Source: a virus
IMG/VR virus record: IMGVR_UViG_3300024182_000011
Span: 1 to 43,376 of that record
DNA: 43,376 nt
Strand: one strand, 5' to 3'
The notes below the pieces were generated by a model. It was given only the letters and a program-made list of their open reading frames with translations, did not search any database and was not told the DNA's origin. The translations under genes were made by a program, and so were the position numbers. Shown one piece after another: positions 39,006-40,383 of this stretch; position 1 is the stretch's first letter; every line of letters begins with the position of its first letter.

Positions 39006-39491
39006 TCACAACAGCGCCAATTCAATTTGAGACAACGCCCGCCCTGACTTAACCATTTCCGGCGTAAATCTAAGCAACCTCCATCCAGCCAGCGACAGCG
39101 CGTTGTATTTCAAACAGTCATTTTCAAAGCCCGCGCCTCTGGTATGCCGTCCGCCTGTCCATATGCCGCCTTCAATTTCCACGGCCAGCATCTTGTCAGG
39201 CCAAGCGAAGTCAACCCGCCAGCGCCTAGGGGGCGAAAACCTGTATTCCCGCTTCCAATCCCCGATCTTCTTGACGTGTAGCTGCATGGCAAGCATTTCC
39301 TCGCCTTCGCTGCCTTTTTTGGGCGCAGATACCTTCAGAGGCTTACCGCGTTGCTGTGGCGCGTTCTGGCGCGATTTAGGGGGTGTTTTGGACTCCCCGA
39401 AGTCAGGGTAAATATCGCCCTGCCTCCAAGCATCCTTGTTTTTCTCGCTCTTAGCCTTTACCGACTCTGCGGATTGGAAAAGCCTTGTCAT
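39006..39491 (-). CDS. Vsr-like PD-(D/E)XK endonuclease (161 aa)
   Basis: Start at ATG 39491 in an ATGA overlap with the methyltransferase stop, with GAAGGA upstream. The catalytic core is seen in EYRFSPPRRWRVDFAW...LAVEIEGGIWTGGRH, i.e. Asp and E-x-E of a PD-(D/E)XK nuclease, followed by YNALSLAGWRLLRF, like the end of Vsr (GWRVL). E. coli dcm and vsr also overlap. It may repair T:G mismatches from deaminated 5-methylcytosine, or nick DNA otherwise. The N-terminal ~65 residues are basic and disordered. Confidence 0.72.
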   Translation of the reverse strand: MTRLFQSAESVKAKSEKNKDAWRQGDIYPDFGESKTPPKSRQNAPQQRGKPLKVSAPKKGSEGEEMLAMQLHVKKIGDWKREYRFSPPRRWRVDFAWPDKMLAVEIEGGIWTGGRHTRGAGFENDCLKYNALSLAGWRLLRFTPEMVKSGRALSQIELALL

Positions 39492-40231
39492 TTCAGTCCT
39501 TCGGCTTGCATGATTGCGCGTCCGATGATTTCGGGGATTTGCGGGACGACGGAGTTTCCGAGGGCGGTAAGCTCGTCCATCCATTCGGGAAGCCCATAAG
39601 CCACTCGGTCATTCTCGGTGTCTGCCGGCGCCCAAGTTTCGCAAGGGCTACTCCCAAATACGAACCCATTCTCACCCCACGCCTTGCATGACTTTCTACT
39701 GCTCTCAAAAAACTCTGTTGAGATATATTGTTGCGCTTGCTCCCGTCGCTCGCATTCGGGGTAGGCAATAATCCACGCCCTATCTCTGATATGCTTGGCG
39801 CCAAGGTAGGCAGCTGGTATGCAATGCCACTCCGCGTCATACCCGAACGAGGCCAAGTCTGCGAGAACTCTGCCAATTCCCCTTGTAAGCAAATCTGCTG
39901 AGTTTTCCACGATGACGAAGCGCGGTCGTATTTCGCTAATAACGCGTGCGTATTCACCCCATAATCCGCTTTTGGTGCCATCAATGCCGCGTCTATTGCC
40001 GGCCGGCGAAATGTCCTGACAGGGGAATCCGCCGCAGATAACGTCAACTCCGGAAACATCTGCACCTGTGAACTTTCTGACATCATCAAAGATCGGGACA
40101 TCGGGCCAGTGTTTTCGCAGGACGGCGCGGCAGAATGGCTCAATTTCGCAGAAGGCAACGGTGCGCATTCCAGCTCTTTCGAGCCCGAGGCTAAAGCCGC
40201 CAATGCCTGAGAACAAATCAAGGACATTCAC
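39488..40231 (-). CDS. C5-cytosine DNA methyltransferase (247 aa)
   Basis: Transfers a methyl group to C5 of cytosine. Motif I DLFSGIGGFSLG (residues 5-16), motif IV GGFPCQDIS with catalytic Cys71, motif VI VENS (ENV normally), motif VIII RDRAW (149-153) and motif X GNSVVPQI (225-232). The target-recognition part (~155-215) is short compared with the family (total often >300). GTG start in a GTGA overlap with the upstream gene. Much of the gene is also open in another frame on the same strand (39493-40227), see that entry. Confidence 0.92.
   Translation of the reverse strand: MNVLDLFSGIGGFSLGLERAGMRTVAFCEIEPFCRAVLRKHWPDVPIFDDVRKFTGADVSGVDVICGGFPCQDISPAGNRRGIDGTKSGLWGEYARVISEIRPRFVIVENSADLLTRGIGRVLADLASFGYDAEWHCIPAAYLGAKHIRDRAWIIAYPECERREQAQQYISTEFFESSRKSCKAWGENGFVFGSSPCETWAPADTENDRVAYGLPEWMDELTALGNSVVPQIPEIIGRAIMQAEGLK
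39493..40227 (-). CDS. second open frame inside the cytosine methyltransferase gene (244 codons)
   Basis: The +1-like frame of the methyltransferase gene is open for 244 codons with no stop. The product contains LPTPNASDGSKRNN, SQTWPRSGMTRSGIAYQLPTL, and MTEWLMGFPNGWTSL, phrases that I recognise in stand-alone phage proteins of unknown function found next to cytosine methylases. This makes genuine dual coding possible. No separate ribosome-binding site is evident near its start, so ribosomes might enter from upstream. An artefact of codon bias is the alternative. Confidence 0.4.
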   Translation of the reverse strand: MSLICSQALAALASGSKELECAPLPSAKLSHSAAPSCENTGPMSRSLMMSESSQVQMFPELTLSAADSPVRTFRRPAIDAALMAPKADYGVNTHALLAKYDRASSSWKTQQICLQGELAEFSQTWPRSGMTRSGIAYQLPTLAPSISEIGRGLLPTPNASDGSKRNNISQQSFLRAVESHARRGVRMGSYLGVALAKLGRRQTPRMTEWLMGFPNGWTSLPPSETPSSRKSPKSSDAQSCKPKD

Positions 40232-40383
40232 TTAATCCTCCACTGAACCGGCGCAGGAATGGCTACCACCTCGCGCACAGGAATTTCCCTTGAAAAGTCC
40301 AGCCAACAATCAGCCCGCGAACATCCGGTAACTTTATTTTCTCCAGATAAAGCCTTGTGGCAGATGCGGCAGGGGACTGTCAT
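40228..40383 (-). CDS. 51-aa zinc-binding microprotein
   Basis: A coupled small gene: its ATG overlaps the stop of the gene at 40380, and its TGA overlaps the GTG of the methyltransferase. The product has CRICHKALSGENKVTGC and DCW: four cysteines plus His, consistent with one zinc site. GGAGG near its end serves the next gene. Function unknown. Confidence 0.7.
   Translation of the reverse strand: MTVPCRICHKALSGENKVTGCSRADCWLDFSREIPVREVVAIPAPVQWRIK

Follow-up and report, generated by a model that had tools for sequence, protein, structure and literature searches.

The locus described here raises the question of why a viral gene resembling those of C5 cytosine methyltransferases is open in a second frame of the same strand over almost its entire length, and whether that frame encodes a protein of its own. 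The window, that is, the whole stretch of DNA analyzed, is a 43,376-base virus sequence, and both long frames lie on its minus strand. A second frame of 244 codons within the methyltransferase gene had been described in the original prediction, and both open reading frames, here called alpha and beta, were confirmed.

Reading frames and motifs of the locus

The following features were located in the window.

39488..40231, minus strand: alpha, putative C5 cytosine methyltransferase subunit (247 aa, GTG start)
39493..40227, minus strand: beta, putative second protein within alpha (244 aa, ATG start, +1 frame relative to alpha)
39574..39624, minus strand: motif-IX segment of beta, QTPRMTEWLMGFPNGWT (beta residues 202-218; hhalign, beta profile)
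39742..39918, minus strand: conserved core of beta, SSSWKTQQ ... TWPRSGMTRSGIAYQLP ... GLLPTPNASDG (alignment of 115 beta proteins)
40196..40225, minus strand: motif I of alpha, VLDLFSGIGG (located in the sequence)
40007..40033, minus strand: motif IV of alpha, GGFPCQDIS, with the catalytic Cys (located in the sequence)
39899..39913, minus strand: motif VI of alpha, IVENS (located in the sequence)
39773..39787, minus strand: motif VIII of alpha, RDRAW (located in the sequence)
39512..39565, minus strand: motif X of alpha, ALGNSVVPQIPEIIGRAI (located in the sequence)
40225..40241, minus strand: common start region, GGAGG-ATTAA-GTG-A-ATG (from the sequence)
39006..39491, minus strand: ORF 3' of alpha, weakly similar to DUF559/Vsr-like nucleases (PF04480, E 0.002)

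Alpha matched the PF00145 profile with an E value of 6e-42 over residues 2-163 only, reaching position 168 of the 324 profile positions, and M.HhaI, for which structures have been solved, over residues 3-156 only. Its score against TIGR00675 is above the cut-off and, as with PF00145 and HhaI, the match covers only the first two thirds of the protein. The segments corresponding to motifs I, IV (PCQ), VI (ENV-like), VIII, and X of C5 methyltransferases are all present in alpha (one analysis behind this motif check omitted L375 and L429 and shortened L400), and motif IX, which was sought in the alpha chain, is absent from it.

A single Shine-Dalgarno-like GGAGG at 40237-40241 precedes both starts, with the alpha GTG at 40229-40231 and the beta ATG at 40225-40227, i.e., four bases past the alpha start. 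An upstream 51-aa ORF (40228-40383) ends in a TGA that overlaps the alpha start, and the start of the ORF at 39006-39491 overlaps the alpha stop. The match of the latter to PF04480 (18.4 bits) is under the cut-off of 20.6; together with alpha, this Vsr-like ORF recalls the dcm-vsr pair of E. coli. No restriction gene was recognized in a scan of eight neighboring ORFs.

Stop codons and substitution rates in the second frame

The open second frame is not a matter of chance. In the window gene, the +1 frame was stop-free in 0.14% of 20,000 synonymous-codon shuffles (mean, 4.4 stops) and the +2 frame has 17 stops; this single-gene effect is modest and would be compatible with a non-coding by-product of the amino acid conservation and codon use of alpha. 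Relatives were collected by the alpha frame only, so that no selection was imposed on beta. Across 80 such loci, the +1 frame contains 414 stops versus 670.7 expected and the +2 frame 1009 versus 976.5, and at least 80% of the gene length is open at 45 of the 80 loci in the +1 frame and at none of them in the +2 frame. The first set comprises 58 non-redundant genes, in which codons 91-220 contain 1 stop in the +1 frame versus 177.3 expected by synonymous shuffling and 366 versus 381 in the +2 frame. Codons 1-60 of these genes, with 145 +1 stops versus 147.3 expected, and likewise the gene end are not depleted; apart from codons 91-220 of this set, and thus also in the two sets that follow, the +2 frame is not depleted but shows more block-to-block variation. 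Set A, a second subfamily of 50 genes in which beta is open gene-wide, has 1 stop in the +1 frame versus 255.6 expected over codons 11-290, and a third alpha-selected set of 57 genes has 1 versus 127.5 over codons 101-180. Near-duplicates were dropped before these block counts at 85% identity for the first set and at 80% for the other two. The near absence of stops from three alpha-selected sets, with the +2 frame as a control, argues against the by-product, which is furthermore not seen in single-chain relatives of E. coli Dcm (84 stops in the +1 frame versus 99.4 expected, 6 distinct genes).

The HMM similarity of beta was also compared with that of synonymous shuffles, and the real sequence scored above every one of the 50 shuffles in each of the 29 genes tested, in the +1 and +2 frames alike (median z of 10.2 and 7.9, respectively). 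This comparison was set aside and not used as evidence because the +2 control passes as well, so that mainly shared ancestry is measured; such inflation of shuffle-based similarity, the +2 frame included, counts in favor of a by-product.

Changes at the third positions of alpha codons alter beta. In close pairs of homologues (35, 39, and 26 disjoint pairs), the ratio of third- to first-position change in alpha is 0.81, 0.55, and 0.76 at the beta motif IX, about 1 in the variable region, and 2.85 and 3.05 in the N-terminal region of two sets, where beta is unconstrained. The codon-position substitution rates thus show constraint on beta, and with their reversal the by-product is hardly credible. 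The original prediction had dismissed a chance overlap in favor of real dual coding or overprinting and had called for an alignment of homologous genes that would reveal constraint in both frames; dual coding is strongly supported by the +1 stop depletion together with these rates.

The start codons also bear the mark of both frames. In set A, the alpha start reads ATGAATG in 46 of 50 genes, and alpha codon 2, where it encodes Asn, is AAT in 48 of 48 cases, in contrast to 213 of 518 later Asn codons; without this T, there would be no beta ATG. Many beta starts in set W relatives (e.g., L078, L084, and L092) lie about 55-60 codons inside alpha instead of at +4, and these internal starts are MSEQLTLFA-like, often with a purine-rich stretch upstream. 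Selection acts to keep both frames open.

Motif IX in beta and in single-chain relatives

The C-terminal part of beta contains the motif-IX segment TEWLMGFPNGWT, and the most conserved stretch of the protein, LNPxWVEWLMGFPxGWT, resembles motif IX of C5 methyltransferases. In the local mode of hhalign, beta residues 185-234 aligned to motif IX of the single-chain enzymes (P 7.7e-5, probability 62%) with a template of only 7 sequences; the global mode, beta versus single-chain enzymes, returned nothing. A database search with the 244-residue product, as had been proposed, gave phrog_1008 (E 3e-23), which is matched by 114 of 115 beta proteins, and no family in Pfam or NCBIfam. Because motif IX is found in beta and not in alpha, the locus was assigned to the two-chain form and not to the single-chain enzymes.

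The position of motif IX was compared across 99 genes selected with single-chain queries, a sample that overlaps contigs of the earlier sets and includes the truncated or degenerate rows L354, L369, L412, and L426. Motif IX lies in alpha in 13 genes, whose +1 frame contains stops, and is not in alpha in 86, whose +1 frame is open; it is never in both places. The 86 genes contain 7 stops in the +1 frame versus 339.2 expected, and the 13 contain 87 versus 141.0, a single-chain count that is still below the shuffle expectation. A regular expression recognized the beta motif IX in 71 of the 86 genes and in 0 of the 13, giving no beta motif IX for 15 of the 86. Alpha thus lacks motif IX and beta contains it, and the two locations are mutually exclusive across relatives.

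In L333 (a genome contig) and in ten viral loci (L371-L380), a beta-type motif IX with the sequence LNPDWVEWLMGFP or one close to it is located in alpha between the variable region and motif X, and the beta frame contains stops. The alpha of a Candidatus Megaera plasmid (L481) likewise carries a beta-type motif IX, with stops in the beta frame. When a tree was built from motifs I-VIII of a chosen subset of rows, the re-fused single chains grouped together in a single clade (10 rows, 100/97) inside the dual-coding genes, and the canonical single chains L353 and L365 fall outside them. Given this nested position, the likeliest course would be that motif IX moved back into alpha and that beta was lost afterwards. 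The AlphaFold2 model of the L333 single chain is confident apart from residues 167-261 and therefore does not cover the target-recognition region; its residues 1-320 match M.HhaI with a Z score of 24.5 and an rmsd of 2.7 over 237 residues; in a phmmer comparison, the L333 motif-IX segment falls on that of HhaI, at only 3 bits.

A probable two-subunit enzyme and its alternatives

Based on these comparisons, the locus very probably encodes a heterodimeric C5 cytosine methyltransferase, whose two subunits would be encoded by one DNA stretch in different frames, with beta giving motif IX in trans, and an M.EcoHK31I-like two-subunit enzyme is the best reading of its type. One mRNA with two starts would yield two proteins. 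Alpha would contribute the SAM-binding and catalytic motifs (I-VIII) plus motif X, and beta, which would be initiated at a separate ATG four bases past the alpha start, may bind alpha and complete the small domain with motif IX. The dimer could then methylate the phage DNA, probably for escape from restriction, and beta may also form part of the target-recognition region. Beta thus appears to be the second subunit of this methyltransferase, a function that goes beyond what had been proposed for it.

Alternatively, beta could be a real overlapping protein with a separate function, e.g., as a regulator or an anti-restriction protein. About 100 conserved residues upstream of motif IX (SSW..., WPRSG...) have no recognized counterpart, which is consistent with such a function and is not explained by a simple model of beta as a motif-IX donor; on the DNA, the conserved core coincides with alpha motifs VI-VIII. 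No structural match for beta was obtained either: its AlphaFold2 model from 115 sequences is of low confidence (pLDDT 59.6, pTM 0.27), and neither a Foldseek search with this model nor a profile-based search against PDB sequences gave anything useful. On the other hand, beta overlaps alpha in the +1 frame at 110 of 110 beta-containing loci (30 viral or phage, 80 genome contigs) and stands alone at none of them, the beta frame decays where motif IX has gone to alpha, and the beta motif IX aligns with the canonical one, so that a separate function is improbable.

Programmed ribosomal frameshifting from alpha to beta before motif IX and back to alpha before motif X could also place motifs I-VIII, IX, and X on one polypeptide, as in L333. 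This would require two opposite shifts about 25 codons apart. The openness and constraint of beta extend far upstream of motif IX, and beta has its own starts (+4 in set A, internal elsewhere), several with purine-rich upstream sequence. Furthermore, in L251 and L028, motifs IX and X both lie on beta and thus in a frame other than that of alpha. Frameshifting is thus highly improbable, and the two-subunit reading is preferred.

The choice of target may lie with either chain. L333 suggests that the alpha variable region can set the target, and L251, L028, and L027 suggest the same for the beta variable region. In L027, everything (a beta-like variable region, IX, and X) lies in one chain, and its branch is long (1.91), so that its placement in the tree is unsure. 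A wider interpretation is that a conserved dual-coding gene family, widespread among phages and prophages and in contigs from many bacterial phyla, encodes its target-recognition region on a single DNA stretch in both frames, that indels or recombination would change both subunits at once, and that beta would help to choose the target in addition to donating motif IX; this remains tentative and is rather doubtful. Downstream of the split methyltransferase of L028, a second cassette (L028:3348-3908) combines a beta-like variable region with motifs IX and X and is possibly an alternative specificity subunit. Both frames of L244 (551 aa for alpha and 503 aa for beta) have very long variable regions, and WPTP-like units are repeated in its beta.

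In the two-subunit C5 methyltransferase M.EcoHK31I (YGGCCR), the small-subunit ORF is nested within the gene of the large subunit in a different frame and both subunits are needed for activity; the nesting of beta in alpha resembles this arrangement. The motif layout is also alike: as outlined in PMC3404938, which cites Lee, Kam, and Shaw (1995), the large subunit of M.EcoHK31I has motifs I-VIII and X and the small subunit has motif IX alone, and in the window, motifs I-VIII and X are on alpha and motif IX is on the second chain. The likeness concerns gene and motif layout, the former being an E. coli restriction-modification enzyme in contrast to the phage gene here. M.AquI (CYCGRG) is another C5 methyltransferase divided between two polypeptides (PMC3404938); its small subunit has motifs IX and X, unlike the window, where motif X is on alpha, and L251 and L028 look AquI-like. 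The single chains Dcm and M.HhaI share motifs I-VIII with alpha, as seen in the PF00145, TIGR00675, and HhaI matches, but carry motif IX in the same chain, and Dcm relatives have no open +1 frame. The PHROGs family phrog_1008 appears to represent the beta frame, or proteins containing beta, but is labeled 'DNA methyltransferase' with no mention of an overlapping frame. In a search of open-licence PMC papers, which is weak evidence of absence, no description of such an overlap among phage methyltransferases was found. M.EcoHK31I is already a known case of a two-chain C5 methyltransferase whose second chain bears motif IX; against the open-licence literature, the breadth and conservation of the overlap in phages and its loss upon re-fusion seem to be new.

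Full-length same-strand dual coding has rarely been proven in bacteria and their viruses, and the evidence here comes from three alpha-selected sets and from natural controls that have shed the overlap where the enzyme has become a single chain. The apparent absence of motif IX from such methyltransferases would be explained, and the annotation of a common phage gene, whose beta has no Pfam or NCBIfam family, would be corrected. Alpha cloned and codon-optimized alone would lose beta and probably activity. In addition, the origin and loss of overlapping genes become testable.

The alpha/beta overlap is common and almost never annotated. A tblastn search with beta returned 151 phage records and 10 plasmids, and scanning genomes with an alignment of 18 beta sequences returned 80 loci from many bacterial phyla and one archaeal MAG. 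In 12 phage records, alpha is annotated in six, beta in five, and both in none, the remaining one being frameshifted (L007). The three phrases highlighted in the original prediction, including PTPNASDG, are found in beta, and the 'independent phage proteins' to which they were attributed are most likely the same frame annotated in place of alpha; since databases annotate one frame or the other, an apparently independent family is explained. Dual coding thus stands, and a separate stand-alone family arising by overprinting is not supported, given that beta overlaps alpha at every locus. One phage version was matched at the DNA level in 4 of 5,426 E. coli genomes, and the two matches examined both annotate alpha only. 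Both overlapping frames of mycobacteriophage Seabastian (L007, 1419-2178) are broken at about one place by a frame change, and this record, like those of several related mycobacteriophages, annotates two methylase genes. The alpha of E. coli PCP07014 (L478, 2500-3261) has an internal stop and is recorded as a pseudogene, and its beta has a stop near the same place; L007 and L478 look like broken copies.
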